From: Akkermansiaceae bacterium
GTDB taxonomy: Bacteria > Verrucomicrobiota > Verrucomicrobiia > Verrucomicrobiales > Akkermansiaceae
NCBI GenBank assembly: GCA_026421245.1
Contig: JAPKDJ010000020.1
Location: forward strand, 1-59,918
Length of the DNA stretch: 59,918 nt
Direction: 5' to 3'
Part shown: positions 5,366 to 43,228 of the stretch, piece by piece
Layout of the letters: the number at the start of each line of letters is the position of its first letter
Position numbering within the stretch: the stretch's first letter is position 1
Translations under genes and position numbers: made by a program
The notes under the pieces: generated by a model
The model's input: the letters and a program-made list of their open reading frames with translations, nothing else
Databases searched by the model: none
Told to the model about the DNA's origin: nothing

Positions 5366-5383
5366 GTTCATTTTAAATTGAAC
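5366..5383. promoter_or_regulatory. copy 1 of 18-bp near-palindromic operator
   Basis: GTTCATTTTAAATTGAAC is a dyad: arms GTTCA and TGAAC around TTTAAA, broken by one symmetric mismatch pair. It sits 13 nt before the GTG of the GbsR-like gene. The identical 18 bp recurs at 6485-6502, directly after the regulator pair. MarR/GbsR dimers bind dyads of this size, so it is a good candidate autoregulatory site. Binding by this protein is inferred. Confidence 0.65.
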
Positions 5384-5915: not shown

Positions 5916-6467
5916 ATGAGTATTGATCCTGCCTGGTATGTGCTGCGCACGCAGTTGAAGCGTGAGCGATTGGCGGCGGCGAATTTGCGTCAGCTGGAAG
6001 GGGTGGAGGTGTTTTCACCTCGGTTGAAGTATCAAAAAACGACTCGTCGGGGGCGAGTTTGGTGGGTGGAGCCGTTGTTTCCGGGGTATTTGTTGGCCAG
6101 GTTTTCGCTGGAGGAAAAGGGAAGAGTGGTGACTTATACGGCAGGGGTGAGCCGGATGATTAGCTTTGGGAGCACCGTGCCGGAAGTGCCAGAGGATTTT
6201 GTCGAGAGCTTACAGAAGGAGGTGGCGAAGGTTGAGACCGGAGATGAGGAGATTGTGGTGAATTGGAAGGTGAATCTCGGCGATGAATTGGAGGTGGCGG
6301 ACGGCCCGTTCAAGGGAATGGAGGGAGAGGTGGTGGAAGTGCGACCCGGATCGGAGCGTGTGAGCTTGCTTTTGGAGTTTTTGGGCGAAACGCAGTCGGT
6401 TGAGGTGAGCTTGTTTAATTTGATCTTAGCCAGGCCGGATGTTCCAGAAGGATGGCGCGGAGATTAA
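5916..6467 (+). CDS. NusG paralogue of the RfaH/UpxY type (operon-specific antiterminator)
   Basis: The 183-aa protein has an N-terminal NGN domain (WYVLRTQLKRERLAAANL; EPLFPGYLLARF; AGVSRMISFG) and a C-terminal KOW domain (LGDELEVADGPFKGMEGEVVEV). The EPLFPxYL and GVSxxxxFG segments resemble RfaH more than housekeeping NusG. The stretch before GVS reads TYTA where E. coli RfaH has NATR, so the threonine counterpart is kept and the arginine is replaced. Such proteins load onto RNA polymerase at specific leader sites and suppress termination in long surface-polysaccharide operons. A 27-kb co-directional polysaccharide cluster begins 175 bp downstream, and its leader holds an exact ops 11-mer. 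Start ATG follows the regulator stop by 3 nt. Confidence 0.9.
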   Translation: MSIDPAWYVLRTQLKRERLAAANLRQLEGVEVFSPRLKYQKTTRRGRVWWVEPLFPGYLLARFSLEEKGRVVTYTAGVSRMISFGSTVPEVPEDFVESLQKEVAKVETGDEEIVVNWKVNLGDELEVADGPFKGMEGEVVEVRPGSERVSLLLEFLGETQSVEVSLFNLILARPDVPEGWRGD

Positions 6468-6484: not shown

Positions 6485-6502
6485 GTTCATTTTAAATTGA
6501 AC
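6485..6502. promoter_or_regulatory. copy 2 of 18-bp near-palindromic operator
   Basis: Identical to the site at 5366-5383 (GTTCATTTTAAATTGAAC). It lies 140 nt before the first gene of the polysaccharide cluster. It is followed by two smaller dyads, ATGAT-caa-ATCAT at 6505-6517 and the perfect 10-bp palindrome AGTGATCACT at 6548-6557. I infer that the cluster promoter lies here under GbsR-type control. I could not assign convincing -35 and -10 boxes. Confidence 0.65.
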
Positions 6503-6616
6503 AAATGATCAAATCATGAGTCTATCAATGCCAGCGAGTTGATGCTCAGTGATCACTCCAAATTACAAGGCAGCCTTTCCCGTGGTTTCTTCCTTCAAAT
6601 GGAACGATCGACCAAG

Positions 6617-6627
6617 GGCGGTAGCGT
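6617..6627 (+). promoter_or_regulatory. ops-like element (exact GGCGGTAGCGT)
   Basis: An exact match to the 11-nt core of the ops element, which recruits RfaH to paused RNA polymerase in enterobacteria. It lies in the non-template orientation in the leader between an RfaH-type gene and a long polysaccharide cluster, which is where an ops site is expected. It ends 15 nt before the TTG start of the first gene, and that start lacks a Shine-Dalgarno. This fits the model in which RfaH also recruits the ribosome. Function in this phylum is inferred. Confidence 0.7.
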
Positions 6628-6642
6628 ATTATTGATTTTGTT

Positions 6643-7755
6643 TTGAATGTTCCCTTATTAGATGTTCCCGCGCAAAATGCGGAGTTGAAGGATGAGTTGA
6701 TGGAGGCTTTCGAGGGTGTTCTGGACTCGGGATATTTTATTCTTGGGCCGGAAGTAGAGGCTTTTGAGAGAGAGGTCGCTTCCTACCTAGGCACTCCACA
6801 TGCGATCGGGGTCTCCTCAGGGACGGATGCTCTCGTCGTGGCTCTAATGGCCTCAGGGGTGGGACCGGGTGACGAGGTGATATGCCCGGCATTCACCTTT
6901 TTTGCCTCTGCCGGAAGTATTGCACGGGTTGGAGCTGTCCCAGTGTTTATTGATTCGGAGGAGGATCGCTTTAATTTGGATCTCGAAGGGGCGGACGAAC
7001 TAATCACAGAGAGAACGAAAGCGATTATGCCGGTTCATCTCTTTGGACGTGGTGCAGCAATGGGGCACGTCAACGACTTTGCGAAGAAGCATTCGCTCGT
7101 GGTGATTGAAGACACCGCCCAGTCGCTGGGAGCTTCAATTGCCACCCAAAAATGCGGAACGATGGGAGACTTTGGGATCTATAGTTTTTTCCCCTCCAAA
7201 AACCTGGGGGGATTCGGAGATGGGGGCTTGGTAAGCTGCGCAGATGACGAGAAGGCCGAGTTGGTTCGCCGTCTCAGAAATCATGGGATGTTTCCCAAGT
7301 ATTATCATTCGAAAGTCGGCGGCAATTTCAGAATTGATGCCCTTCAGGCTGCTCTTTTAAGGAAGAAGCTTCCTAAACTCGATTCATACGGTCGTGGAAG
7401 GGCCGAGAATGCGACCTATTATTTGCATGAATTTTCCGACCTAGATCCAGCAAGGGTGACTCTTCCTCTTGCTGGAACAGCTGAAGAAGGGGTGATTTGG
7501 AATCAGTTCACACTCAAAGTGCACGGAGAGCGGGATAGGTTGCAGGCCTACCTTCTGGAAAACCAGGTCGGGTGCGAAATCTACTATCCGGTGCCCTTGC
7601 ACAAGCAGGAGTGCTTTGCCCATCTCCCGGCGGTGGAGTTGCCTGTGGCGGAGAAGCTGGCGTGCGAAGTGCTGAGTATTCCGGTGTATGCCGAGCTTGG
7701 CGAAGAACGGCGGCAACGGGTTGTGGCCGTCGTGAAATCGTTTTTCAAATCATGA
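6643..7755 (+). CDS. DegT/DnrJ/EryC1/StrS family PLP-dependent sugar aminotransferase
   Basis: Makes an amino sugar nucleotide for the polysaccharide, or acts on a related keto-sugar, 370 aa. The N-terminus has the family start [11 protein letters not shown]. The PLP-anchoring region has [11 protein letters not shown], and the downstream DTAQSLGA and [11 protein letters not shown] give the Schiff-base lysine (FFPSKN). The start is a TTG at 6643, because a TAG lies in frame just upstream and no ATG is available. There is no Shine-Dalgarno, and the ops-like element ends 15 nt upstream. The stop overlaps the fcl start (ATGA). First gene of the long cluster. Confidence 0.9.
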
Positions 7756-10583: not shown

Positions 10584-11165
10584 ATGGCGGAGAACATTCA
10601 TACCCAGTTTCACCGATTTGTCGCACCTGCGGAGAAAGAAGCTCTCCTCGGCCAGAGAGGGATTGTTCTATGGCTGTATGGACTCAGCGGATCGGGAAAA
10701 TCTACAATTGCCGCGGCCCTGGAACGTTCCCTGCACGAAGGGGGGCATTTTACGGTCATCCTTGATGGCGATAACTTTCGCCACGGGCTGAATTCCGATC
10801 TTGGTTTCAGCGACGAAGATCGGCATGAAAATGTCCGGCGGGTCGCTGAAGTGGCTAGGGTTTTCGCCTTACAGGGAGTCATAGTTCTCGTAAGTGTGAT
10901 CACTCCAAAAAAATCTCTCCGTTCTTTAGCGCGGGGGATTGTCGGAGAATCGTTTCAGGAGATCTTTATCCGGGCTTCCTACGAGACCTGTGCGACGAGA
11001 GATCCTAAAGGTCTCTATGCCAAAGTGGCCGAGGGGAAAATCAAGCAATTCACGGGCAAGGAGAGTGGGTTTGAAGAGCCCTGTTCGCCGGACTTGCTCA
11101 TAGATACCGAGAAAATTGATCCGACCTCTGCGGTTGAAATGATAAAAACTCTCTTGCCAGAGTGA
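10584..11165 (+). CDS. cysC: adenylylsulfate (APS) kinase
   Basis: Phosphorylates APS to PAPS, the sulfate donor for sulfotransferases, 193 aa. Walker A is GLSGSGKST (33-41). The DGDNFRHGLNSDLGFS segment binds APS, and a RRVAEVARVFALQG helix and VSVITPKKSLR follow as in CysC proteins. It starts 2 nt after the glycosyltransferase stop, and cysD follows after 64 nt. Finding APS kinase with sulfate adenylyltransferase inside a glycan cluster, rather than with reductive sulfate-assimilation genes, suggests PAPS for polysaccharide sulfation. No sulfotransferase is recognisable nearby. Confidence 0.93.
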   Translation: MAENIHTQFHRFVAPAEKEALLGQRGIVLWLYGLSGSGKSTIAAALERSLHEGGHFTVILDGDNFRHGLNSDLGFSDEDRHENVRRVAEVARVFALQGVIVLVSVITPKKSLRSLARGIVGESFQEIFIRASYETCATRDPKGLYAKVAEGKIKQFTGKESGFEEPCSPDLLIDTEKIDPTSAVEMIKTLLPE

Positions 11166-11229
11166 AAAATCGGCTTTATCCCCCTCCCCGCAGCAAAAAC
11201 CTGACTAACCTGACCAACTTAATCATCAT

Positions 11230-12135
11230 ATGTTTGATTACAACCTGAGCCACCTCGACCAACTTGAGGCCGAAGCAATTTTCATCCTCCGGGAAACAGC
11301 GGCTCAATTTGAGAATCCCGGTCTCCTATTCTCTGCTGGCAAGGACTCCATTGTGATGGCCCACATTTCCCGGAAGGCCTTTTATCCTGCCCGGATCCCT
11401 TTTCCCCTCGTGCACGTCGATACGGGCCATAACTTCCCGGAAACCATTGAATTCCGGGATGCCTACGCAGATAAAATAGGGGCCCGTCTATACGTAGGCA
11501 TGGTGCAAGATTCCATTGACCAAGGCACTGCGGTTGAGGAAACCGGTCCAAACGCCTCTCGAAACAAACTTCAAACCGTGACCCTTCTCGAGACCATCGA
11601 AGAGCAGCAATATGACGCTGTTCTTGGAGGCGGTCGGCGGGATGAGGAAAAAGCCCGGGCCAAGGAGCGATTCTTTTCCCACCGGAACGACTTTGGTGAA
11701 TGGGACCCAAAAAACCAACGTCCCGAGCTCTGGAATCTTTTCAACGGAAGAAAGCAACCGGGAGAGCACTTTCGGATCTTTCCCCTCTCAAACTTTACCG
11801 AGATGGACGTTTGGATGTATATGCACCAAGAAGGGATTGAGCTTCCAAGCCTGTATTACGCCCATGAGCGCGAGACGGTCACACGCAATGGGGTGATCCT
11901 CGCGGTTTCGGAATTCGTGCAACCCAGGGAGGGAGAGCTGGTGGAAACCAAAGTAATCCGCTTCCGGACCATGGGTGATGCAACCATTACTGGCGCAGTT
12001 GAAAGCAGCGCCAACACAATGGAAAAGATCATCGAGGAAGTTGCCGCTGCCCGACAGACCGAACGTGGGAATCGGGCTGATGACAAACGCTCGGAAACGG
12101 CGATGGAAGACCGAAAGAAAGAAGGTTATTTTTAG
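11230..12135 (+). CDS. cysD: sulfate adenylyltransferase small subunit
   Basis: ATP sulfurylase catalytic subunit, 301 aa, usual family length. It forms APS from ATP and sulfate with the CysN GTPase. The PP-loop ATP pyrophosphatase signature SAGKDS (35-40) is intact. LVHVDTGHNFPETIEFRD, GGGRRDEEKARAKER and PLSNFTEMDVWMY are hallmark blocks. The C-terminus ends EDRKKEGYF, the highly conserved tail of this family. Its partner cysN is not adjacent: a 1.3-kb secreted-protein gene separates them. Confidence 0.95.
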   Translation: MFDYNLSHLDQLEAEAIFILRETAAQFENPGLLFSAGKDSIVMAHISRKAFYPARIPFPLVHVDTGHNFPETIEFRDAYADKIGARLYVGMVQDSIDQGTAVEETGPNASRNKLQTVTLLETIEEQQYDAVLGGGRRDEEKARAKERFFSHRNDFGEWDPKNQRPELWNLFNGRKQPGEHFRIFPLSNFTEMDVWMYMHQEGIELPSLYYAHERETVTRNGVILAVSEFVQPREGELVETKVIRFRTMGDATITGAVESSANTMEKIIEEVAAARQTERGNRADDKRSETAMEDRKKEGYF

Positions 12136-12174
12136 AATCCCCTAAACGATCTTTTTAGTTACCTTCTCAGACCT

Positions 12175-13482
12175 ATGTTTATTCGCAGAATCCAAATATT
12201 CGTTTTCATCCTCTTTCTTCCGGGAGTGGTTGAAGCGAGAACCCTCGATGAGCTCAAGGTTTCCTATGAGGTGAAGATGCTTGAGTTAAAAAACAAGCAC
12301 ACCCTTGCTCTCGACAAACTGGTCACGGGCTATTTGGGCGCTTTGGAGCGGGTTCAGAAAAAACTTCAGGAGGGAGGCCGCCTCGACGACGTCCTGAAGA
12401 TCACGAAGGAGAAAGAAGATCTCAAGAACAAAGCCTGGCCGCTGCCCAAATTGGGAAAGTCGTTGCCCGCGGATCTGGTTAAAATGCGCAAGGTTTATGA
12501 AAAGACTCGGGTCCTTGTCGACAGGGAGAACGCCACTGCGATCGTTGAGGTGGCAACCAAGATGGACGGGCTGCTTGAGAAACAGACGGAAACCTTAACC
12601 AAAGCGGGGCGCATTGCTCAGGCAAAAAAAGCGAAAGTGCAGCGCGAAGCCATCGCGGCCGATCCAAAGATTGTTTCGTCAAAGAATCTGCTGGAGCGGG
12701 TGAGGCTTGATCGAAATGCTCCTGTCGCGATGAGAATCCGCCGCTCCGGTGATCATCTGGAGGTCTTGGTTCGCTTCGACAAGAGCGGGGATTTCAGCAT
12801 GGATAGCCCGGTCGAAAACGTGGTCGAAATTACCGGAGGGAAAAAACAGAAAGGGGAAACCAAAGCAACCGTTCTTGGAGAATTCGTAGGAGCAAAGGGC
12901 TATCAAGTTGATCCCTATGTCGCTTTCGAAAGTGATTTAGATGACGTTCTGACTCCTCCGATGCAGGCAGTCAGCCTTGAGGTGAAACCGGGAGTCACTC
13001 ACGAGGAGCGGAAGTGTCTTCGAATCAAGATGGGACCGGTGGCTCCCAATCCGCGAATTGAATGGCCCAATCTCCTAGAACCAGAGACCAGTGCATCGTT
13101 AGTCAAACTTAATTTTCACTACCTGATTCCTCTGGAAAATCAAAAATTGAGAGGCTTTGCCTTTCACCAAGGACTTCTCGCGCCACTTGACGGTCAGGTC
13201 ATGACGACAAGGGGACGTTGGGTCGGAAAGTCGATCGTAGCCGAATCCATTAATAACAACGCCAATCTCAGATTCTATTTCGAGGGACTTTCCGGCGGAG
13301 GGAAAACCTTTAACGGTGGCAACGAGGTGGTCTACCTTGATGACCTCAAAGTCACTTTCCAGCAGTTTTCCGCTCATTCTGTTGCCACCTACAAGGATGG
13401 AAAGGTCGCGAACAAACCGGTGACAGATGCCGAGGCTCAGAAGGCCATCATCCTCTCCGGGAGACTTGTTTCTCAAAATTAG
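12175..13482 (+). CDS. secreted coiled-coil protein of unknown function lying between cysD and cysN
   Basis: The 435-aa protein has a signal peptide (IFVFILFLPGVVEA, mature start near residue 22). Residues about 25-165 are highly charged and helical (LKVSYEVKMLELKNKHTLAL), a coiled-coil type seen in many secreted PVC-phylum proteins. The rest is beta-rich, with a segment near residues 345-415 (GRWVGKSIVAESINN; EVVYLDDLKVTF) resembling a carbohydrate-binding jelly-roll edge, which is inference from composition. The gene interrupts the usual cysDN pair with 39-nt and 12-nt gaps on the same strand, so it should be cotranscribed. No known catalytic motif is visible. Confidence 0.75.
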   Translation: MFIRRIQIFVFILFLPGVVEARTLDELKVSYEVKMLELKNKHTLALDKLVTGYLGALERVQKKLQEGGRLDDVLKITKEKEDLKNKAWPLPKLGKSLPADLVKMRKVYEKTRVLVDRENATAIVEVATKMDGLLEKQTETLTKAGRIAQAKKAKVQREAIAADPKIVSSKNLLERVRLDRNAPVAMRIRRSGDHLEVLVRFDKSGDFSMDSPVENVVEITGGKKQKGETKATVLGEFVGAKGYQVDPYVAFESDLDDVLTPPMQAVSLEVKPGVTHEERKCLRIKMGPVAPNPRIEWPNLLEPETSASLVKLNFHYLIPLENQKLRGFAFHQGLLAPLDGQVMTTRGRWVGKSIVAESINNNANLRFYFEGLSGGGKTFNGGNEVVYLDDLKVTFQQFSAHSVATYKDGKVANKPVTDAEAQKAIILSGRLVSQN

Positions 13483-13494
13483 ATCAAACCTATA

Positions 13495-14739
13495 ATGGAC
13501 CTTCTTCGTTTCACCACCGCTGGCTCAGTTGATGATGGTAAATCCACTCTCATTGGCCGCCTCCTCTATGACTCCAAGTCGATCTTTGAAGATCAATTGG
13601 AAGCAATTAAGGAATCGTCACGGAAAAAGGGTGATGAGAATATGAACCTCGCTCTCCTCACTGACGGGCTCAAGGCCGAGCGGGAGCAAGGAATAACCAT
13701 CGATGTCGCCTACCGCTATTTCGCCACACCCAAGCGGAAATTTATCATCGCTGATACCCCTGGGCACATTCAATACACCCGGAACATGGTCACGGGAGCC
13801 TCAACTGCGAATCTCGCGATCGTTCTTATCGACGCCCGGAAAGGAGTCATCGAGCAGACAAAAAGACACTCGTTCATTGCGAATCTTCTTCGAATCCAGC
13901 ACGTGGTGGTCGCAGTCAATAAAATGGATTTGGTGGATTACAGCCAGGATGTTTATGACAAAATTATTGCTGATTATAAATCGTTTGCATCCCGGCTCGA
14001 TAATATCGTCGATATCAGGCCGATTCCAATCTCCGCCCTTAACGGGGATAACATTGTCAACCGGTCTGAAAACATGCCTTGGTACGAGGGCGCGAGCCTC
14101 CTTTACCATCTGGAGAATGTCTACGTGGGTGGTGATGAAAACCACGTTCAAGCCCGATTCCCGGTGCAGTGGGTGATTCGACCTCAAAGTGACAAATTTC
14201 ATGACTTCCGTGGCTTTGCTGGGAGGGTTTCGGGCGGCGTATTCAAACCGGGCGATGCTGTCCGCATCATGCCTTCCGGTTTTTCCACAACGATTGATAA
14301 AATTTATCAGGATAAAAAAGAGCTCGCCGAAGCTTTTGCCCCTCAGTCGGTTGTCATGACGTTGAACGATGAGATCGATATTTCCCGTGGAGATATGCTC
14401 GTCAAAGACAATAATGCTCCGCACTTGGGTCAGGATATTGAAGCGATGATTTGTTGGTTTTCGACCGTAAATCTTAATCCCCGCAGCAAGTTTGTGATCA
14501 GGCATACCACGAGAGAGGCGAAAGCGATTGTCTCCGAGCTTCGCTATAAGATGGACATTAACACCTTGAGAAAAAATGAGGATGTGAGCTCGTTAACTCT
14601 CAACGAGATCGGGCGTGTCAAACTCCATACCGCATCTCCTCTCTTCTACGATTCCTACAACAAGAATCGTCACACCGGATCATTTATTCTTATCGATCCC
14701 GGCACGAATGAAACGGTGGCGGCAGGTATGATCCTTTGA
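13495..14739 (+). CDS. cysN: sulfate adenylyltransferase large subunit (GTPase)
   Basis: Regulatory GTPase subunit that drives APS formation by CysD, 414 aa. The G-domain has GSVDDGKST (10-18), the switch segment EREQGITIDVAYRYF, the G3 motif DTPGH and the G4 motif NKMD. Translation-factor-like beta-barrel domains follow. It ends at IDPGTNETVAAGMIL, as stand-alone CysN does, with no fused APS kinase, consistent with the separate cysC in the same cluster. It is 12 nt downstream of the secreted coiled-coil gene. Confidence 0.95.
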   Translation: MDLLRFTTAGSVDDGKSTLIGRLLYDSKSIFEDQLEAIKESSRKKGDENMNLALLTDGLKAEREQGITIDVAYRYFATPKRKFIIADTPGHIQYTRNMVTGASTANLAIVLIDARKGVIEQTKRHSFIANLLRIQHVVVAVNKMDLVDYSQDVYDKIIADYKSFASRLDNIVDIRPIPISALNGDNIVNRSENMPWYEGASLLYHLENVYVGGDENHVQARFPVQWVIRPQSDKFHDFRGFAGRVSGGVFKPGDAVRIMPSGFSTTIDKIYQDKKELAEAFAPQSVVMTLNDEIDISRGDMLVKDNNAPHLGQDIEAMICWFSTVNLNPRSKFVIRHTTREAKAIVSELRYKMDINTLRKNEDVSSLTLNEIGRVKLHTASPLFYDSYNKNRHTGSFILIDPGTNETVAAGMIL

Positions 14740-33715: not shown

Positions 33716-35857
33716 ATGATTAAAAAAATTCCAAATTTCAACATAGAGCGCTTGCCCAGATGGGCCAAGTTGATCTGTGCTTGCCTCCTGATTCCCGCAA
33801 CTCCTGCGACCGCTGCGGTAGATCTGAATGGTGACGGGGCCTCTGAGATTTGGAATTTACTGTATCCCGAAGTTCTTCCAGATGATGGCGACTTTGACGG
33901 CGACGGGCAATCGAACATTAGCGAAATGATTGCGGGGACGAGTCCAACTGATTCATCAGACTGGTTTCATATTGGGATGATTCAGGTTGCCAACGATGAA
34001 GTCGTACTTGGGTGGGAAGGAGTGCCGGGCAAAGTTTACGAAATCGAAGCAAGGGATCGCGATTCTGGCGCTTGGGAGACGAAAGTAACTATCAGCCCGG
34101 TTATTTCTCCACAAGCGATGACGGTGACGATGCCTTCGACAGATTCGGCAGGAGTCTACCGACTCGTGGCCAATGATTTTGACAGTGATGGTGACGGAGT
34201 TGAGGCATGGGAAGAGTTTTTGATGGGGTGGAGTGATCAGTCCACCCATAGCTCGGGACAAGTTGGAATTCCGGACTACGAGCAGGCGATTCGTCAATTA
34301 GAGAGCGCTGGTGGAACGACTCTGGTAAATGGGGAATCACTGGAACGGCGCCTCCCAACTGATGAGGAGGCAGCTCGATTTCTAATTCAATCAAGCTTTG
34401 GCCCGACAATGGACTCGATCCGTGCTGTCACGGAAAACGGAATCACTGGTTATCTCGATGAGCAACTATCGTCCACCCCGAGTCTGACTGGGAGTGAAAT
34501 GTGGAAAACTGGCATGACTTTTTCGTCCGCGCTATGGCGGCATGGTTGGTGGAGGGCAGCTCTCATTGCACCAGATCAATTGAACCAGAGGATGGCCTAC
34601 GCACTAAGCCAGATATTTGTGGTGAATAACGAGCCAGGATCGGTGATCGGTGATAACATCAGTACGCAGGCCGCTTATTACGATATTTTTGTGAAAAACG
34701 GCTTTGGGGCCTTTCGGGAAATCTTAAATGACGTGACGTATAGTTCATCAATGGGGTTTTATCTGTCGCACTTAAACAATCGGAAAGGCGATCTTTCTAT
34801 TAATCGTTTTCCGGATGAAAACTTTGCGAGAGAGATCATGCAGCTGTTTACAATCGGGCTTTGGAAATTAAATCCCGATGGCACGCATCAGCTTGATGAC
34901 GGAGGGAAGAGCATACCAACTTATGATAATGAGATAATCAAGGAGATGGCCAAGGTGTTTACGGGAATGAGTCATAGCACGACGAAGAGAGGGCAACCGG
35001 CGACAAGTTTTTATGATTTCGGGACTGGTTCTGACTATGTGAACCCTATGAAGGTTTGGGATGAAGAGCACGAACCAGGAACCAAGGTTCTATTTGACGG
35101 AGTTGTTATTCCTGCCGGTCAAACTGGTGAGGTCGACGTGCAACAAACGCTTGATGCGCTGTGCGCCCATCAGAACGTGGCGCCGTTTATTTGTTTTCGC
35201 TTGATTCAAAGATTTACAACCTCAAATCCGAGTCCCGCTTATTTGAGGCGAGTGACATCTTCGTGGGATGCAAGCGATGGTGATCTAGGGGAGGTTTTGA
35301 AAGCCATTTTACTTGATCCCGAAGTCCGGGCTGGGGGTGGAGACTCCAGTCAGTCCGGAAAGGTCAGAGAGCCGTTGATTCGCCTGACTCATATTTTGAG
35401 AGCCTTTGCTGACCCAGACACTTCGGGGAAGTATGGGGCCTTTCATACAACTCTGAAGGCTGAGTTGGGGCAGTATGCAATGTCTTCCCCGTCAGTTTTT
35501 AACTTTTACCTACCAGGCTACACACCACGAGGAGAACCATATGAGCTTGGGCTTAAGGCTCCTGAGCTGCAGATTGCTACTACCAGTTCACTTCTGGCTA
35601 CCCACGATCGGCTCAAAAAGACAGCGACGATCGGACATTTTGTCAGAGGGATCGACTATTCCGAGGAGCTTGCTCTCACGGATGATCCTGATCAATTGGC
35701 TGATCGCCTCGACCTTCTCCTCACCTGGGGTGAAATGTCCCCGAACACGAAATCGGTCATCATGGAGCGAATCAACAACGAGTTCTTCCAACTCGAGAAA
35801 GTCAGGGCGGCGGTGCAAATCATTGTCACGTCCCCTGAATTCAGCGTCTTGAGATAA
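33716..35857 (+). CDS. secreted DUF1800 family protein with EF-hand/dockerin-like N-terminus
   Basis: 713 aa. The hydrophobic export segment is LICACLLIPATPATAA. The mature start carries two calcium-loop-like repeats (DLNGDGASEIW, DFDGDGQSNISEM). The DUF1800 body starts with AARFLIQSSFGPTMDSI and contains NFAREIMQLFTIGLWKLNPDG and EMAKVFTGMS. The biochemical role is unknown. DUF1800 genes are typically followed by DUF1501 genes, as here (2-nt gap), so the pair is one functional unit. The downstream exosortase, EpsI and glycan genes suggest a cell-surface role. Confidence 0.88.
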   Translation: MIKKIPNFNIERLPRWAKLICACLLIPATPATAAVDLNGDGASEIWNLLYPEVLPDDGDFDGDGQSNISEMIAGTSPTDSSDWFHIGMIQVANDEVVLGWEGVPGKVYEIEARDRDSGAWETKVTISPVISPQAMTVTMPSTDSAGVYRLVANDFDSDGDGVEAWEEFLMGWSDQSTHSSGQVGIPDYEQAIRQLESAGGTTLVNGESLERRLPTDEEAARFLIQSSFGPTMDSIRAVTENGITGYLDEQLSSTPSLTGSEMWKTGMTFSSALWRHGWWRAALIAPDQLNQRMAYALSQIFVVNNEPGSVIGDNISTQAAYYDIFVKNGFGAFREILNDVTYSSSMGFYLSHLNNRKGDLSINRFPDENFAREIMQLFTIGLWKLNPDGTHQLDDGGKSIPTYDNEIIKEMAKVFTGMSHSTTKRGQPATSFYDFGTGSDYVNPMKVWDEEHEPGTKVLFDGVVIPAGQTGEVDVQQTLDALCAHQNVAPFICFRLIQRFTTSNPSPAYLRRVTSSWDASDGDLGEVLKAILLDPEVRAGGGDSSQSGKVREPLIRLTHILRAFADPDTSGKYGAFHTTLKAELGQYAMSSPSVFNFYLPGYTPRGEPYELGLKAPELQIATTSSLLATHDRLKKTATIGHFVRGIDYSEELALTDDPDQLADRLDLLLTWGEMSPNTKSVIMERINNEFFQLEKVRAAVQIIVTSPEFSVLR

Positions 35858-35859
35858 TT

Positions 35860-37263
35860 ATGAAGGAGGAGATGATAAATACGAACAGAAGAAGTTTCAT
35901 TGGGGAACTCAGTTGTGCATCAGTGGGTTCGATTGCGGCGCTTTCTTCTGCTCTGAATTTGAAGCTGGTTGGTTCGCTTTCCGCTGCTGAAACGCCAGCA
36001 GCGGAGGACTTTAAAGCCCTGGTGTGCGTGTTTCTCGCCGGTGGAAACGATTCGTTCAATATGCTGCTGCCGCAGGCCGGAGAGGAGTATGCCGAATATG
36101 CCGTCGCCCGAAGATCATTGGCGCTGCCGACCACGGAGATTACACCGCTTAGTCATACTTTGCCCGATGGCCGGCAGCTTGGAGTGAACTCCAATATGCC
36201 AGGCCTGATCAGTCTTTATGAGGGAGGTAAAGCGGCCTTCGTATCGAATGTTGGGACATTGATCGAGAGAACCACTGTCGCGAGTATTCAGGCTGGAACA
36301 GCAACCCTTCCTTTAGGGTTATTCTCTCATTCTGATCAGCAACTTCATTGGCAAACTAGCCTCCCCGAAACACGCCTGCCTGACTCTGGTTGGGCTGGTC
36401 GGCTAGGGGATTACTTTCAAGACCTAAATGGTGTCAGTGGAGTATCGATGAATATGTCGACGGCGGGCACAAATATCTTTCAAAGTAGCAGTGGGACTGC
36501 CGTCTTCTCTAAATCTCCTGGCACGCTGCCGGGTTTGGCCAACTGGGAGACCGGAAGTTACCTTAATCGAAGGAGGGCAATCGAAACGGTTCTCGAAGCC
36601 GAATACCAGAATGTCTTTGAACGTGCTTTGGCGAGCAAGACCGTAGACGCGATCGCGGCGAGTAAAGAATATCGAGATGCGGTGGCGACTGCTCCAGAAA
36701 TCACTTCTCCGTTTACGATGACGAATCCGATTTCGGCGCAACTTAAGGATGTGGTGCAGAGCATCTCGGCAAGAGAAGGATTGAGCAAGAAGCGCCAGAC
36801 GTTTTTTGTTAAGGCTCCGGGATGGGACCTGCATTCTTCTCTGGATCCGCACGCAACAATGCTCGCCCAGCTGAGCGAGGCAATTACCGAGTTTCAGGCT
36901 GCTATCGAGAGTATGAATCTCTCGGACAACGTGACGTTATTCACGGCTTCGGACTTTGGTCGAACGCTCTCTCCCAATGGGGGTGGAAGCGATCATGCAT
37001 GGGGAGGCAATCAGATTGTCGTAGGTGGGGCAGTCAACGGGAAGAAAGTATATGGATCGTATCCTGAATTGGCGTTGGGGAACCCATTGGACTCGGGACG
37101 CGGCCGATTGGTTCCAACTCTTTCGGTAGATGAGTATTTCGCTGAGCTTGCGCTCTGGATGGGAGTTCCAAAGTCCAGCTTGGCAATGATTCTCCCGAAT
37201 GTTGGGCGTTTTTATGACACGAGCTTGCCAGAGCCTCCTCTTGGATTAATGAATCTGCTATGA
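35860..37263 (+). CDS. DUF1501 family protein with a Tat-type signal
   Basis: 467 aa from the ATG at 35860. An ATG at 35872 directly follows an AAGGAGGAG stretch and may be used instead. The twin-arginine signal is NRRSFIGE followed by a hydrophobic segment, so export as a folded protein is likely. The body has ALVCVFLAGGNDSFNMLLP and VTLFTASDFGRTLSPNGGGSDHAWGGNQIV, the hallmark blocks of DUF1501 (alkaline-phosphatase-like fold). It follows DUF1800 by 2 nt and overlaps the next gene by ATGA. Function is unknown. Confidence 0.9.
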   Translation: MKEEMINTNRRSFIGELSCASVGSIAALSSALNLKLVGSLSAAETPAAEDFKALVCVFLAGGNDSFNMLLPQAGEEYAEYAVARRSLALPTTEITPLSHTLPDGRQLGVNSNMPGLISLYEGGKAAFVSNVGTLIERTTVASIQAGTATLPLGLFSHSDQQLHWQTSLPETRLPDSGWAGRLGDYFQDLNGVSGVSMNMSTAGTNIFQSSSGTAVFSKSPGTLPGLANWETGSYLNRRRAIETVLEAEYQNVFERALASKTVDAIAASKEYRDAVATAPEITSPFTMTNPISAQLKDVVQSISAREGLSKKRQTFFVKAPGWDLHSSLDPHATMLAQLSEAITEFQAAIESMNLSDNVTLFTASDFGRTLSPNGGGSDHAWGGNQIVVGGAVNGKKVYGSYPELALGNPLDSGRGRLVPTLSVDEYFAELALWMGVPKSSLAMILPNVGRFYDTSLPEPPLGLMNLL

Positions 37264-37828: not shown

Positions 37829-38812
37829 ATGAACAGTGAGACCGACACTGCGAGTGAAATCACTCTTTCTAGGAATGGATTTTCATCCATGGCGCCCGCA
37901 GTTCTTTTTACTGGTGCTGCCGCATGGGTGATTTTTTTATACATGTTTACGTTCTATCCGGCGTATCCGACGACACCGGGCCTATCGCTGGCGGGATGGA
38001 CATGGAGTGCTTGTAACTCGCTTAATGGATTTCTTCATGGACGGTTTGTTCCCCTCGCCTTTGTGGTGATGGCTGTGATTGCATGGAAAAATAATAGGGG
38101 CGAAAAGCTATCCCCATCGATGTGGGGGATTTTTTCACTTTCTTTGGGATTGCTGTTCTACCTTGTGTCGATTCGGACCATCCAACCTCGTTTGGCGCTG
38201 ATTGGGGTGCCATTTGTAATTATCGGCTTAGTCCATTTCAGTTTTGGACTGAGATTTGCCAAAGCGATTATCTTCCCTGCCTTTTTCTTCTGGTTTACCA
38301 TCCCAGTGCCGGGCCTGGAGGCGGCCTTGACTGGGAACCTCCAAACTCTAATCACCAAACTTTGTTACCAGACGGGCATGTTTTTCGGAATGGATCTCAC
38401 CCGCTCAGGTTCAACGATTACTATTGGTGGTTCTGATCTCGAGATTGCTGAAGGCTGTAGTGGGATTCGATCACTGATGGCCCTTGTGATGATCGCCGCA
38501 GTTTACGCCAACTACACCCAAAAGGAGCTTTGGAAAAAAGCGGTTCTTTTTGCTTCGGCGATGCCACTTGCAATTGTTGGGAACTTTGGCCGAATTTTCA
38601 CCATTTTGGTTCTAACTCAATTGGGGATGGAAGAATTTGCCAAGCAAACCTACCACGATTGGGCGGGGCTCCTGCTGTTCTTTCCAATCACATTGTCGGG
38701 CCTCTATATGGTCGATTATTTGCTTAACCTAAAGACACGCCGTAAGAAGAAGGTTAAGCGCACGATAAAAGCGAAGAGCGATCCTTCGAAGACCCCGATT
38801 GCTGATCAATGA
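37829..38812 (+). CDS. exosortase/archaeosortase family transpeptidase
   Basis: Polytopic membrane cysteine protease/transpeptidase, 327 aa, that cleaves C-terminal sorting signals (PEP-CTERM or related) and attaches proteins to the envelope or polymer. The catalytic triad is readable: C210 in EGCSGIRS, R255 in GNFGRI, and H276 in YHDWAG. About eight helices surround it. The positively charged C-terminal tail is cytoplasmic. EpsI follows in an ATGA overlap, as in classic exosortase loci. No substrate with an evident PEP-CTERM tail is seen in the window. Confidence 0.92.
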   Translation: MNSETDTASEITLSRNGFSSMAPAVLFTGAAAWVIFLYMFTFYPAYPTTPGLSLAGWTWSACNSLNGFLHGRFVPLAFVVMAVIAWKNNRGEKLSPSMWGIFSLSLGLLFYLVSIRTIQPRLALIGVPFVIIGLVHFSFGLRFAKAIIFPAFFFWFTIPVPGLEAALTGNLQTLITKLCYQTGMFFGMDLTRSGSTITIGGSDLEIAEGCSGIRSLMALVMIAAVYANYTQKELWKKAVLFASAMPLAIVGNFGRIFTILVLTQLGMEEFAKQTYHDWAGLLLFFPITLSGLYMVDYLLNLKTRRKKKVKRTIKAKSDPSKTPIADQ

Positions 38813-39603
38813 AAAAACGAGCCATAGTTCTTCTGGGAATTGCTATTCTTTCTCTGGGTGCCGTTCTGTGGCTACCCGATATCCCCAAGATGAAGCCGTC
38901 GCGACTTGCGAACGAGCTTCCTGAGATGTTTAACGATTGGACGGGGAAACCCAAGGAGGCAGGGGCTCGAGAGAGAAAGGTGCTCGCGCAGGATACTGAA
39001 TTTGAAAGAATGCAATACTTTCATCGGGATGGGGGGTTACCGTCTGTTGAAGCTTCAATTGTTTTTTCGGGAAAAAATCTTAGCCAGAGTATTCACCGCC
39101 CCGAGGTCTGTCTCCGCGCACAAGGTTGGGAGTTTGTGAGCGAGGCCTATCACAATTGGGAGGGGATCTTGCCTGATGGGGAGATCCTTCCCGTTAAGGA
39201 AATTATTTGCAAACAAGTCCATCGTTATAAGGATGACGAAGGCAGACTAAACCCAACGATCCTTGAGAATGGGAAGGAGTTGATGATTTGGAGGTCCTTC
39301 TGTTACACTTTTATCGGTCATGAACGGATTGTTTCCGGCCACTACGAACGCACGGCGGAGGATATTAAAGATCGGCTTTTTAAAGGTTATGACCAACGTT
39401 GGGCCTATGCCACTTTTTCCTCGTTCATTAGCGGGAAATACGCTGAGCAAGGAGCCTCCATCGGATCAATGATCGTTCTCGATGAGGCAGAGACAAGAGG
39501 GCACATTCGCTCTTTTTTGAAGGAATTGCTTCCTAAGATTTTGTCAGCACCCGGAGAGGGATCCGACGATTCAATCAATAAACGAAGATCATCCGGCTCA
39601 TGA
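38809..39603 (+). CDS. EpsI-family exosortase-associated protein
   Basis: 264 aa with an N-terminal hydrophobic anchor (AIVLLGIAILSLGAVLWLP) and a periplasmic domain. The diagnostic SIHRPEVCLRAQGW is present, with the conserved R-P-x-x-C-x-x-x-x-G-W. MIWRSFCYTFIG follows. EpsI proteins go with exosortases and polysaccharide production; the biochemical role is not settled. ATGA overlaps on both sides make it translationally coupled to the exosortase and the sugar transferase. Confidence 0.9.
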   Translation: MKKRAIVLLGIAILSLGAVLWLPDIPKMKPSRLANELPEMFNDWTGKPKEAGARERKVLAQDTEFERMQYFHRDGGLPSVEASIVFSGKNLSQSIHRPEVCLRAQGWEFVSEAYHNWEGILPDGEILPVKEIICKQVHRYKDDEGRLNPTILENGKELMIWRSFCYTFIGHERIVSGHYERTAEDIKDRLFKGYDQRWAYATFSSFISGKYAEQGASIGSMIVLDEAETRGHIRSFLKELLPKILSAPGEGSDDSINKRRSSGS

Positions 39604-41009
39604 TTGACCGCGGCTCCAAACAACTTTTTTCGATCCAGCTTTTGCAGGTTGCCGATGCGATTCTGGTTTGGGTTGGCTTTGTTCTGGCGGCAGCAGTGCG
39701 TGGTCCGGTCAGGAATATTTTGGGGATGAGTGACCTCGGCGAAAGCGGTTTTGAGGGGATGACTTGGGTCGTCTATATCGTGGTTCCATTTACTCCTTTG
39801 GTGCTTGAGCGGTTTGGTCATTACGACCACTTTCTTTCGAAGCGATGGTCTCAGAGATTTAGCGGCCTTTTCCGGGGGATGCTGATTGTTGTCTTTATTG
39901 TTGGGATCGTGGCTGTTTTCGGAAAAATGACCGATACCAGACGTCTGATTCTTGGGTCAGGGATTCTCTTTAGCTTTGCACTTCTTTGGGTAAGAGATCA
40001 GGCGACTACCAAGGTAATAAAGGCACGGGCAGCTTATGGAGGCTTTCGTGAACGTGTGGTGCTTGCTGGAGCTGTCACAGAAACGGCAACTTTCCTGGAA
40101 GAGCTGGAACATGGGGTTTCAGAGACCTGGAAGATTGTAGCCCACTTCGATTTAAGCAAAAGGTCGGTGAGAGAACTTGATGAGATCATAAAAAACGAGT
40201 CGGTGCAGCGGGTGATCTTTTTATCCCAGCACACCGAATTCGAGAGGGTGGCACGGGCCGTCGAGGTTTGCGAAGTGCAAGGAGTCGAGGCTTGGATTGG
40301 AGCTTCTTTTTTACAGACCCAAGTGGCTCGACCCAGCTTTGATTCGATCGGTGGTTTGCCGATGCTGGTCTTTCGCTCAACCCCCGAACTTTCCTGGCAA
40401 CTCTTTGCCAAGAAGTTGGTCGATGTGGTCGGCGCTCTGGCGATCGTGGGAATCTCTTTCCCGTTGTGGATTGTAGCAATGGTCGGCATTCGACTTGCCA
40501 GCCCCGGTGCCCCGGCCATTTTCACCCAACAGCGCTCTGGCCTTTATGGAAAGCCATTTTGGATTTATAAATTCCGCACGATGGTTCCAAATGCTGAGAA
40601 GTTGCTCGCCGACGTTAAGGAAGAGCATGGCAACGAGGTTGATGGCCCTGCTTTTAAGCTGCGATCTGATCCGAGAATCTTTGGTTTCGGCAACTTTTTG
40701 CGGAAGTACAGTATCGACGAACTCCCCCAGATGATCAATGTCTTGAAAGGTGAAATGAGTCTGGTGGGGCCTCGACCGCTGCCGCTTCATGAAATTGATT
40801 CCATTGTGAACTCTGCTCACAGACGTCGTCTCAGTATGAAACCTGGAGTGACGTGCCTATGGCAGATTAGTGGCCGAAGTGATATTACTGATTTCGATGA
40901 ATGGGTAAAACTTGATGTCGAATATATCGACTGCTGGTCTCTTTGGGAGGACTTTCGAATTCTAATCAAAACGGTTCCAGCGGTATTATTTAGTAAGGGT
41001 GCGAGATGA
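39600..41009 (+). CDS. initiating sugar phosphotransferase (polyprenyl glycosylphosphotransferase, WcaJ/EpsE type)
   Basis: Transfers a sugar-1-phosphate to undecaprenyl phosphate to start repeat-unit synthesis, 469 aa. The N-terminal half has several membrane helices and a CoA-binding-like domain (EHGVSETWKIVAHFDLS). The C-terminal catalytic domain has RSGLYGKPFWIYKFRTMVPN, DELPQMINVLKGEMSLVGPRP and KPGVTCLWQISGRS, the conserved Asp/Glu and PRP blocks. Only one such enzyme is seen in the window, so it may prime the polymer made by the cluster upstream as well. ATGA overlaps link it to both neighbours. Confidence 0.93.
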   Translation: MIDRGSKQLFSIQLLQVADAILVWVGFVLAAAVRGPVRNILGMSDLGESGFEGMTWVVYIVVPFTPLVLERFGHYDHFLSKRWSQRFSGLFRGMLIVVFIVGIVAVFGKMTDTRRLILGSGILFSFALLWVRDQATTKVIKARAAYGGFRERVVLAGAVTETATFLEELEHGVSETWKIVAHFDLSKRSVRELDEIIKNESVQRVIFLSQHTEFERVARAVEVCEVQGVEAWIGASFLQTQVARPSFDSIGGLPMLVFRSTPELSWQLFAKKLVDVVGALAIVGISFPLWIVAMVGIRLASPGAPAIFTQQRSGLYGKPFWIYKFRTMVPNAEKLLADVKEEHGNEVDGPAFKLRSDPRIFGFGNFLRKYSIDELPQMINVLKGEMSLVGPRPLPLHEIDSIVNSAHRRRLSMKPGVTCLWQISGRSDITDFDEWVKLDVEYIDCWSLWEDFRILIKTVPAVLFSKGAR

Positions 41010-43228
41010 GTAAAATGTTGTTTTTAGTTTATGTCTTGGTTTCTTTGGGGTTTGCCGTGATTGCGGTAACCGGGGGCGATCACGTGATCGGAAGAGCGGG
41101 CTTTGGGCTTGTCTTGCTGGCGCTCCCCGTCTTTCTGCTGGGTTTGAATAATCTTTTTTCATCTAAAGTTCGCGAACGAACTTGGCTTTCGGTGATCACT
41201 GTTCTTGGAGGGGGATACTTCATCTGGCGGGCTCTCGCAGGTGGCCCCATAGGTCTGGCACTTCCGGACATCACACTGGTCTTGGCAATTCTTGTCACCT
41301 ATCAGGCGGTGACGATGTCAGGGATTGGGTTGAAGAAGGCCATCATCGTAGTTCTGGCAATCGTTTGTGTTGCAAATGTAGGGATTGCTGTGGTCCAGGC
41401 ACTGTCAGGTAGTGACTACGACTTTTGGGAGGGCTCGGCAAAGGAGGCTTCTGCAGTTACCGGATTTTTCGGTCACTACAACGCATTCGCCTCGTTTCTC
41501 AATGGCGCGATTTTCTTTTTTTTGAGCGTGGCACTATTGGGGAAGGGAAAGATCGTGCGAATTGGGTGCATCCTGCTTGTTGTCGGGATGCTTGTGGCTC
41601 TCCACCTAAGTGGTTCACGAGGTGGGTGGATCTCGTTTGTGATTGGTGGAGTGGCCTGGTTGATTGCGATCAATATTTGGTTGGTCCAGCAGAAGAGCAA
41701 GTGGGTGGGGGTGTCTATTATTGCCTCATTTGGCCTGGGGGTGAGTGGGGTGTTGACCTCTGTCTTGGTAGTTCAAAAACTGTCTGAGAAACGTGCTGAG
41801 CACAGCGATGAGGGCCTGCCGGTAGAACAAGACGTGATCGTAGATGACGGGGGACGCCTAGACTTCCAGCAGATGGCCATAGAAGTATTTCAAGATGGGC
41901 CGGTCTTAGGAAATGGGCCCCGGGCATTCTCATATGTTTCTCTTCAGAAGTGGGACCCCTCGGAATTGTTATTTAGTAACCGGCCTCCAGAATGGGTTCA
42001 CAACGAATATCTGCAGGCCCTCACCGATTATGGAGCGGTGGGACTCGTGATTATTTTAATCGTTCTCCTTCTGCATGGAATTTTGGGTTGTTATTCCTTG
42101 TTCACTGAGAGTAACGGGGATGTCGATCCAATCTTTAAGATTGGTGCTCTTGGAGGGCTGGTAGCTGTCCTGTGTCAGTGTTTGTTTAGTTTTTTGATGC
42201 ACTTTCCGTCATGTGCAATTCTGTGCGCATTCCATCTTGGGATTTTAGCCTCGAGCCCTAGGGCATTTCGAAGCAAGGGGGGATTCGAGATGGCGGGGAA
42301 GGTGGCGACCGGAGTTTTGGGGATCGCGACTTCGGTGTCTCTTATTCTGGTTTCCGTGCCACTTTTTCAGTCATTTCGTTTAAGTCTCAAGGCAAACCAG
42401 GCGCTTGCGAATGTGGTGACCGCCGGAGACGCTTTCCATGCTCTGGAGATCTTAGACGAAGCAGGGACAGCGGGCCGTGACCCGAAGATTTTTGAAGTTG
42501 CGGGACGTCTGGCAATGACAAAGGCGGCTGTTTCTATGGTGAATAAGGATCGTGAGCTCGCAAAAAGATTTAACGAGCGTGCAAGGATCGCCTTTGAGAA
42601 GGCCCTTAAGTATAACCCACATTTTTCTCCGGCAATCGCAGGATTACCCCGGGTACATGATGCGCTGGGCAATGCACTGGAAGCTGAAAAAGGTCATGAG
42701 AAGGCGATGGCCACTCTTTGGGCTCGCGAGTTTCGGCTAAAGCCTCATTATTATGCCGCTAAGAGCGCGATGATGGAAGGATATCGCGCGATGGTCGGGC
42801 AGGATGACTTGATGGCCTTGCAGCACTTTCGCAAGGCTCTTGAGAGAATTAGCAAGCGACGTGAGCTACTTGAGCGTCATTGGGAACGCCCTGACGAGAA
42901 GAGCCTTCGGATGGAAGTTGAAGGCTGGATTGCTTTCCATGAGGCGCGAATGTTGTTCCGGAAGGGAGATGATGTCTGGAAGAATGCAAGGCCCCGTAAT
43001 CCGGGCTTGGCGTATGGGCTCATGCTTGAGGCTCAAAAACGCTACCGGGCCAGTGAGAAGGTGGTGCGGGACAAGGATTCGCGGTGGGGACGGCAAGTGG
43101 AGCAATTGGAAGTGAACTTGAACCTTTTTGTGACTGTTCGGGAACGCCCCGCCCAATTGACCGCGGAACAGATTGCGAAGATTGTGACTCCCGAAGCGGG
43201 CCTTGATTCCGGACCCTCGAACCGTTAA
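41006..43228 (+). CDS. O-antigen ligase/polymerase-like protein with C-terminal TPR-type domain
   Basis: 740 aa. Residues 1-460 are polytopic, and LHLSGSRGGWISFVIGG gives the Wzy_C-type loop start. The loop holds VLGNGPRAFSYVSLQKWDPS and EWVHNEYLQALTDYG, as in O-antigen ligase-superfamily proteins. Residues about 465-740 are soluble, helical and repeat-like (FEKALKYNPHFSPAIAGLPR; LQHFRKALERI), resembling TPRs. Fusions like this are common in exosortase loci. It differs from the polymerase-like protein at 27419. The start is an ATGA overlap with the sugar transferase. Confidence 0.85.
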   Translation: MSKMLFLVYVLVSLGFAVIAVTGGDHVIGRAGFGLVLLALPVFLLGLNNLFSSKVRERTWLSVITVLGGGYFIWRALAGGPIGLALPDITLVLAILVTYQAVTMSGIGLKKAIIVVLAIVCVANVGIAVVQALSGSDYDFWEGSAKEASAVTGFFGHYNAFASFLNGAIFFFLSVALLGKGKIVRIGCILLVVGMLVALHLSGSRGGWISFVIGGVAWLIAINIWLVQQKSKWVGVSIIASFGLGVSGVLTSVLVVQKLSEKRAEHSDEGLPVEQDVIVDDGGRLDFQQMAIEVFQDGPVLGNGPRAFSYVSLQKWDPSELLFSNRPPEWVHNEYLQALTDYGAVGLVIILIVLLLHGILGCYSLFTESNGDVDPIFKIGALGGLVAVLCQCLFSFLMHFPSCAILCAFHLGILASSPRAFRSKGGFEMAGKVATGVLGIATSVSLILVSVPLFQSFRLSLKANQALANVVTAGDAFHALEILDEAGTAGRDPKIFEVAGRLAMTKAAVSMVNKDRELAKRFNERARIAFEKALKYNPHFSPAIAGLPRVHDALGNALEAEKGHEKAMATLWAREFRLKPHYYAAKSAMMEGYRAMVGQDDLMALQHFRKALERISKRRELLERHWERPDEKSLRMEVEGWIAFHEARMLFRKGDDVWKNARPRNPGLAYGLMLEAQKRYRASEKVVRDKDSRWGRQVEQLEVNLNLFVTVRERPAQLTAEQIAKIVTPEAGLDSGPSNR

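Follow-up and report, generated by a model that had tools for sequence, protein, structure and literature searches.

A conserved RfaH-ops-like element downstream of a NusG paralogue gene in Verrucomicrobiota

The NusG paralogue, its leader and the glycan operon

The window, by which we mean the whole analysed stretch of 59,918 nucleotides from an Akkermansiaceae genome, carries at 5916–6467 of the forward strand a gene for a NusG paralogue of RfaH/UpxY type, P0001, assigned by Pfam, NCBIfam and tree analysis. P0001 has 183 amino acids and contains a NusG N-terminal domain (PF02357, E 3.7e-14). Its best NCBIfam match was RfaH (TIGR01955, 81.4 bits, cut-off 144.5), followed by UpxY (NF033644, 74.4 bits, cut-off 100) and LoaP (NF033641, 50.4 bits, cut-off 125), all below cut-off; the RfaH/UpxY-like gene named in the original prediction is thus present, with a NusG domain and with RfaH and UpxY as nearest models. 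Finding an RfaH-like protein beyond Proteobacteria is no novelty by itself, since RfaH occurs in 23 of 117 phyla, about 95% of it in Proteobacteria (excerpted text of PMC7593976). The 16 nearest relatives of P0001 in named contigs share 51–86% identity with it and are found in Akkermansiaceae, Verrucomicrobiales and similar records; the scan's remaining 46 loci share 24–42% and come from other phyla, going by record titles where these are informative. A second, weak paralogue match in the genome of the window looks like the housekeeping NusG by its sequence. Modelling with AlphaFold2 from a 15-row alignment gave a pLDDT <50 over residues 106–183, leaving the C-terminal domain, which in RfaH converts from an alpha-hairpin to a beta-barrel, without confident structure.

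Upstream of P0001 lies a gene for a MarR-type HTH regulator, P0002 (5397–5912, forward strand), a relative of which immediately precedes the paralogue in 108/158 loci. The palindrome GTTCATTTTAAATTGAAC is located before the HTH gene (5366–5383), as a possible operator, and a second copy after the paralogue (6485–6502) might be the operator of a leader promoter. TTGAAC - 17 nt - GTCTAT at 6497–6525 of the forward strand is a possible promoter whose spacing recurs in several loci of the genus; a sigma-70 scan of the leader returned no promoter and two terminator-like sites vs 2.0 expected. A similar GTTCA-N8-TGAAC is present in 50/158 leaders, and many loci of the window's genus have TGAGTCTAT-like letters at a fixed distance. 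As the palindrome occurs both before the HTH gene and after the paralogue, with similar sequences in these 50 leaders, the arrangement points to control by the HTH protein over its own operon as well as over the onset of leader transcription, a possible second regulatory layer at initiation.

The leader contains the 11-mer GGCGGTAGCGT at 6617–6627 of the forward strand, its sole exact copy within the window, starting 150 nt past the end of the paralogue ORF and ending 15 nt before a TTG start at 6643. It was predicted as an exact ops element between an RfaH/UpxY-type gene and a glycan operon, and this position was confirmed. The match to the enterobacterial ops holds for all 11 bases and ends there: the ops-type core GGCGGTAGCGTA (6617–6628) agrees with the 12-mer GGCGGTAGCGTG in 11/12 bases, with A instead of G at base 12 (6628), and takes the form GGCGGYAGCKTG in relatives. 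At the E. coli ops G12 supports pausing (excerpted text of PMC5995543).

The predicted TTG start 15 nt past the 11-mer opens, as expected, the first gene of the operon, which encodes a DegT-type aminotransferase (6643–7755, forward strand, by Pfam). The absence of a Shine-Dalgarno sequence before it, which had been pointed out, is common here, only 5/32 other genes of the window having a match of at least 4 nt by a simple rule; such matches are rare window-wide. ORF, Pfam and NCBIfam analysis of 6643–33631 of the forward strand bears out the proposed 27-kb cluster insofar as these are mostly sugar genes, but the co-directional genes continue to 44205, with a gap at 23.1–23.8 kb. The cluster comprises genes for the aminotransferase, an NDP-sugar epimerase, GDP-mannose-dehydratase-type proteins, a WecG-type transferase, APS kinase, CysD, an EF-Tu-type GTPase (CysN-like), a flippase-like protein, a pyruvyl transferase and several glycosyltransferases, besides other genes and genes without family. 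Exosortase and Wzy_C genes follow past the sugar genes at 37829–43228, and a DUF1800 and DUF1501 pair lies between the glycosyltransferases and the exosortase region at 33716–37263. The APS kinase, CysD and CysN-like GTPase genes lie at 10584–14739, within the operon, and their presence suggests that its product is a sulfated polysaccharide; elsewhere, too, a gene for APS kinase is often the first to follow a copy of the element.

Conservation of the core and of the leader hairpin

The chance of finding the 11-mer had been given as 1.4% per strand of 60 kb. This arithmetic is right, but the whole genome (4.3 Mb, both strands, 4^11) has two exact copies vs about two expected by chance, so that the 11-mer alone is weak evidence and conservation decides. 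The second genomic copy (C73:18550), within an opposite-strand ORF resembling a HAD hydrolase by eye, was taken as a chance occurrence.

We read the leaders of 158 of the 212 paralogue matches from the phylum and family searches; one leader (L220) is shorter than 350 nt, giving n=157 at 350 nt. The relatives are not independent samples, and the named-contig loci and family genomes partly overlap. Conservation in the same leader of relatives had been set beforehand as the test, and the element passed it: GGCGGYAGC follows the paralogue in 15/15 nearest named relatives with full gene and leader, the 16th (L016) being excluded since it is cut off within the gene. The first downstream gene varies among these relatives (aminotransferase, GDP-fucose-synthetase-like and Glf-like, by eye). 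Phylum-wide, the 19-mer GACCAMGGGCGGYAGCKTG, which was learned from the same leaders, was found within three mismatches in 77/157 leaders, with no hit on the reverse strand, 0/156 upstream of the gene and 2/3140 in dinucleotide shuffles, and the strict pattern GGCGGYAGCKT in 63/157 leaders, with none on the reverse strand or in shuffles. By the three-mismatch rule 80/157 paralogue leaders are without the element; several genera without it in this leader have copies elsewhere in the genome.

Two further tests were independent of any core motif derived from these data. In its exact enterobacterial form the 11-mer occurs in 12/157 leaders (0.013 expected), on none of the reverse strands and in 0/156 sequences upstream of the gene. 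The hairpin-only pattern GGTTT-N12..26-GACCR picked 57 stretches, and GGCGG came next in 57/57; C3, G4, G5, A7, G8 and C9 are each present in 57/57. On the reverse strand the pattern picked a single stretch, where GGCGG was not next. What is conserved is the unit of hairpin and GGCGGYAGCKTG, and not the exact enterobacterial 11-mer, as GGCGGTAGYGT is found in only 6/15 nearest named relatives and the exact 11-mer in only 12/157 leaders. If the match were fortuitous, or the site a general pause served by no factor of its own, two exact 11-mers in the genome, a number close to chance expectation, would be unsurprising. The tests of strand, shuffling, co-occurrence and conservation contradict this reading; that relatives keep the element in the same leader is enough to refute it, and we rejected it as having next to no probability. 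These results support the reading of the 11-mer as an ops-like signal of the NusG paralogue.

The whole element spans about 55 nt and consists of a covarying hairpin (GGUUU...GACC) followed by GGCGGYAGCKTG. In the window the leader RNA hairpin (GGUUUCUUCC...GGAACGAUCGACC) occupies 6584–6613 of the forward strand, as determined by folding, by the covariance model R1 and by covariation in 60 relatives. R1 places the whole element at 6576–6631 of the forward strand with 47.8 bits (E 2.3e-11; the window is among R1's own 60 rows), and the next match in the window reached 12.2 bits. R1 E-values are rough, as they come from a short calibration, and the searches over 40 genomes used stricter filters. 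In alignment A2 the core is preceded by a stem of the pattern GGUUU-N-loop-N-(2 nt)-GACC. T6627, which corresponds to U11, the position of the E. coli ops pause, lies 14 nt downstream of the 3' foot of this stem; from this spacing we infer that folding of the hairpin would be finished at about the moment the polymerase pauses.

Covariation was assessed in 60 of 68 representative elements with an 11-pair helix drawn from these same sequences, eight divergent elements being left out of R1 (L080, L082, L087, L091, L111, L154, L162 and L223). The helix cells were paired in 85.0% vs 69.2% in column shuffles, cells changed on both sides numbered 128 vs 44.9, and the covariation score was 0.471 vs 0.184 (sd 0.015), with 0/500 shuffles as high in each case and slid controls at or below 0.203. 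Two weaker measures gave 8 vs 6.2 for pairs changed on both sides (27/500 shuffles) and 31 vs 26.3 for further pair types (4/500 shuffles). The stability of the window hairpin alone is not above that of shuffles (z -1.0). On these grounds we regard the element as real and conserved, and as a putative RfaH-ops-like recruitment element of Verrucomicrobiota.

Distribution of the element and its association with the paralogue

With profile A1 at E<=1e-12 a paralogue was found in 114/387 genomes of the phylum and 113/145 of the family. Of the 114 phylum matches 28 are weak (E >1e-20), and some of these may be plain NusG; the paralogue is strong (E<=1e-20) in 86 genomes. R1 matched 51/377 phylum genomes at E<=1e-3, 47 of them with a paralogue; the four without one at E<=1e-12 (G209, G282, G301 and G359) have best R1 E-values of 4e-4 or weaker. 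At E<=1e-5, where genome counts were read by hand from match tables, as were the counts of copies away from the paralogue, R1 matched 39/377 phylum genomes, and 39/39 have a strong paralogue (hypergeometric 2e-29, kinship ignored). More than half of the 86 strong-paralogue genomes have no R1 element at this threshold, 39 having one. In the family, R1 matched 113/141 genomes at E<=0.05 and 100/141 at E<=1e-5, and 99 of these 100 also have the paralogue, G401 being the exception. Among the 111 family genomes with a paralogue that were covered by both searches, 12 lack an R1 match at E<=1e-5: G237, G240, G407 and G413 have none at all, and G390, G397, G403, G411, G451, G464, G474 and G482 have weak ones.

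The genome of the window has one element, and three other genomes of its genus have two each. In at least 44/141 family genomes an element lies on another contig than the paralogue or far away from it, although the distance is not always proved because contigs are fragments. G420 has 11 copies, several of near-equal score (L248, L318, L319 and others), which are possibly repeated cassettes. From the match lists we picked by hand 57 copies that do not directly follow a paralogue; these include L233 (1.2 kb), L276 (9 kb) and L278 (14 kb), which lie near the paralogue on its contig, and L322 in G401. An ORF of at least 100 amino acids lies close downstream of 49/57 copies and is missing for eight. 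According to the 25 of 44 Pfam families listed, the first ORFs of the 49 copies encode sugar transferases (8), UDP-galactopyranose mutase (Glf, 7), APS kinase (7), epimerases (4), ABC-2 membrane or permease proteins (4) and Wzz (2), and one each DegT, UDP-glucose dehydrogenase, glycosyltransferase 1, nucleotidyl transferase and others. As many copies lie away from the paralogue and before other polysaccharide genes, the element probably acts in cis in the genome of the window and also in trans in many relatives, and the surface polysaccharide operons marked by it look like a trans-acting regulon.

This distribution also bears on a reading in which the leader is a translational or metabolite switch, that is, a riboswitch or leader peptide with no connection to the NusG paralogue. 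A short leader with a hairpin near a weak start codon would suit such a switch, but no Rfam family matches the window at gathering score, the element accompanies the paralogue in the 39/39 phylum and 99/100 family genomes at E<=1e-5, and it precedes many different first genes. We therefore consider a switch very improbable.

Outside the phylum, a search of 249 Pseudomonadota genomes with R1 gave no match at E<=1e-5 (best E 6.1e-4). Weak matches (E 6e-4 to 0.01) were found in 16 of these genomes at 18 places; by eye most look like chance, and L303 and L309 look like true JUMPstart. In 198 genomes of a third phylum, that of a Syntrophaceae genome, the best E was 4.0e-4. When R1, which was built from Verrucomicrobiota only, was run on 16 kb of E. 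coli K-12, the rfb JUMPstart was the top match with 20.1 bits vs 6.7 for the next; in E. coli rfb the core is likewise preceded by CCA in an identical register, with the CC of the hairpin foot at equal distance. Exact GGCGGTAGCGT lies at most 500 nt downstream on the same strand in 6/30 Pseudomonadota RfaH-like loci (0.003 expected; none on the reverse strand or upstream). These copies, 70–340 nt downstream of RfaH-like genes (L364, L365, L369, L370, L372 and L380), are cis ops. R1 matches these six loci and a few others weakly, and the six alignments shown span the core only. Folding of the sequences before the six copies revealed a clear stem in L372 (z -4.8) and L364 (z -2.9), the others ranging from z -1.1 to 0.8; as the stem is clear in 2/6 only, we do not claim an upstream hairpin for Pseudomonadota in general.

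Recognition, origin and comparison with known systems

In the E. coli ops, C3:G8 and G4:A7 build a hairpin in the non-template strand, and RfaH reads only G5 and T6 through a hydrogen-bond network of K10, H20, R23 and R73 (excerpted texts of PMC5995543 and PMC6391919). The bases that form and present this hairpin, C3, G4, G5, A7 and G8, are all present in the window. Among 76 elements picked with the 19-mer at up to three mismatches, a procedure that favours core bases, C3, G4, G5, G8 and C9 are found in 76/76 and A7 in 75/76; one further element was dropped for an N. Base 6 is C in 52, T in 22, and G and A in one each, the window having T, and in the 57 hairpin-picked stretches it is C in 39, T in 17 and G in one. 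Base 10 is G in 48 of the 76, T in 22, C in five and A in one, base 11 is T in 69, and base 12 is G in 55, A in 11, C in five and T in five.

On the protein side, E. coli RfaH K10, H20, R23 and R73 correspond to Q13, N23, L27 and A76 of P0001 in a MAFFT alignment. Among 73 aligned members K is found at the K10 place in 12 and H at the H20 place in 21, and the R23 and R73 places vary or differ. E52 and R148, the counterparts of E. coli E48 and R138, are present in 73/73. E48 is the autoinhibition residue of RfaH and R138 its partner; since E. coli NusG also has R at the R138 place and no E at the E48 place, only E52 is telling. We found no protein residue that predicts T6 vs C6, the best alignment columns looking like lineage signal only. 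With C3, G4, G5, A7 and G8 fixed and both T6 and the contact residues variable, the display frame appears to be kept, whereas the read base has changed and so has the pocket for it, and an RfaH-like loading site with a shifted code is the most likely interpretation.

In genus g5 (G237, G240, G407 and G413) the paralogue is present without an R1 match, and the leaders carry ACCAATGGCGGACGCATG or near forms. At one mismatch, copies of the g5 core pattern also occur in three genomes, where the gene that follows was identified by eye as GDP-mannose-dehydratase-like in two and as encoding a membrane protein in the third; at two mismatches the pattern also hits chance-looking places, including one in the genome of the window and one in G024. 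At the g5 loci L389, L390, L391 and L393 and, grouped with these, at L388, L394 and L395, a lineage-specific core, GGCGGACGCATG, was observed in the cis leader, with near copies before other sugar or membrane genes.

Judged from sequence comparison, we consider it quite probable that the RfaH-like NusG paralogue encoded next to the element uses it as its loading site, with P0001 as the likely reader. Transcription of the leader would start somewhere after 6502, and the leader RNA hairpin would fold as RNA polymerase reaches GGCGGTAGCGT, where the enzyme would pause. In the paused bubble the non-template strand would form a small C3:G8 / G4:A7 hairpin that exposes G5 along with base 6, which is a pyrimidine in most relatives. 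The paralogue would bind this DNA display together with the polymerase, exclude housekeeping NusG and Rho, and stay on the polymerase through the long glycan operon, possibly with antitermination and help to ribosomes. In the window's genome this action would be in cis on the adjoining operon, and in relatives probably also on unlinked polysaccharide operons with the same element.

Alternatively, the paralogue might read RNA as LoaP does and bind the leader hairpin, leaving GGCGGYAGCGT as pause and spacer only. Strong covariation of the hairpin and sequence conservation in its lower stem would speak for this, as would the reported binding of LoaP to a hairpin in leader RNA (excerpted text of PMC12691694) and the fact that the residues with which E. 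coli RfaH reads ops are not fixed here. However, the core is more invariant than the hairpin and retains bases on which E. coli RfaH depends in addition to the pause, and the Pseudomonadota copies beside RfaH-like genes keep the core, to which their displayed R1 alignments are confined. We consider RNA reading unlikely.

Concerning the origin of the element, a quick tree of 164 proteins separated RfaH types from NusG (SH-aLRT 99) and united the Verrucomicrobiota in one group (94), and the six Pseudomonadota proteins with exact ops are spread over all three Pseudomonadota groups. As exact ops thus stands beside RfaH-like genes in all three groups, we lean towards a shared origin of ops over two origins; descent from an early RfaH is favoured and not proved, the tree being a short search without UpxY, LoaP and TaA. 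Convergence, in which the Verrucomicrobiota signal arose separately from a consensus pause, is compatible with a loading site and would agree with the fit of the ops flanks to the general pause consensus (excerpted text of PMC5995543), with the differing contact residues and with the separation of the Verrucomicrobiota group from Pseudomonadota. Yet the central bases, dispensable for pausing according to the same excerpt, are invariant here except base 6, the hairpin-foot CC is equally distant from the core in E. coli rfb, and exact ops follows 6/30 Pseudomonadota RfaH-like genes at 70–340 nt in all three tree groups, so that convergence appears possible but rather doubtful.

Taken together, the observations can be joined in a broader reading, to which we give an even chance: RfaH-ops would be an ancient multi-phylum regulon with a drifting code. 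Its composite signal would combine a DNA hairpin of fixed frame (C3:G8, G4, G5), whose read base (T6 in enterobacteria, C or T in most Verrucomicrobiota, GGAC or GGAT in one genus) evolves in step with the protein pocket, with a nascent-RNA hairpin at a fixed upstream distance that forms as the polymerase pauses. Verrucomicrobiota lineages would switch between regulons that act in cis only and regulons that act in trans, with a regulator that uses ops even though it is without the E. coli contact residues. The data suggest that RfaH-ops control may be older and wider than thought. Among the literature matches listed, in a search with subscription journals mostly outside its reach, there was no earlier report of an ops element in Verrucomicrobiota. 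A second phylum with its own ops regulon, in cis and probably in trans, would provide natural pairs of element and reader, and the code for recruitment to RNA polymerase would therefore become workable by comparison; it would also give a handle on exopolysaccharide control in Verrucomicrobiota.

Several known systems resemble the one described here. LoaP is likewise a NusG paralogue with a leader RNA hairpin, but its dfn hairpin is of the UNCG type, and the excerpted text of PMC12691694 describes no ops core for it. UpxY of Bacteroidetes is also encoded beside a capsule or EPS operon; P0001 lies below the cut-off of the UpxY protein model, by which the two were compared, and the recruitment mode of UpxY-like operon-encoded paralogues is called unknown in the excerpted text of PMC7593976. 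A stem-loop has been described for JUMPstart (RF01707; excerpted text of PMC2864571). RF01707 gave no match to the window leader at E<=10, and 0/60 family genomes reach its cut-off; of its weak matches in 33 of these 60 genomes (E<=1), two are cis elements (G390 and G409) and one is another R1 match (G277). Compared with RfaH-ops of E. coli, the system belongs to another phylum, the regulator gene stands beside its target in many genera, T6 is mostly C, K10, H20, R23 and R73 are not fixed, base 12 of the window is A, and upstream of the core there is an 11-pair hairpin with a sequence of its own. As the scores lie below the protein and Rfam cut-offs and the contact residues differ, we do not class it as RfaH-ops proper. 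The two systems share a NusG paralogue, the exact 11-mer in the window, the hairpin bases C3:G8 and G4:A7, G5 and mostly T11, the location in leaders of surface-polysaccharide operons, and copies that are unlinked to the regulator gene.
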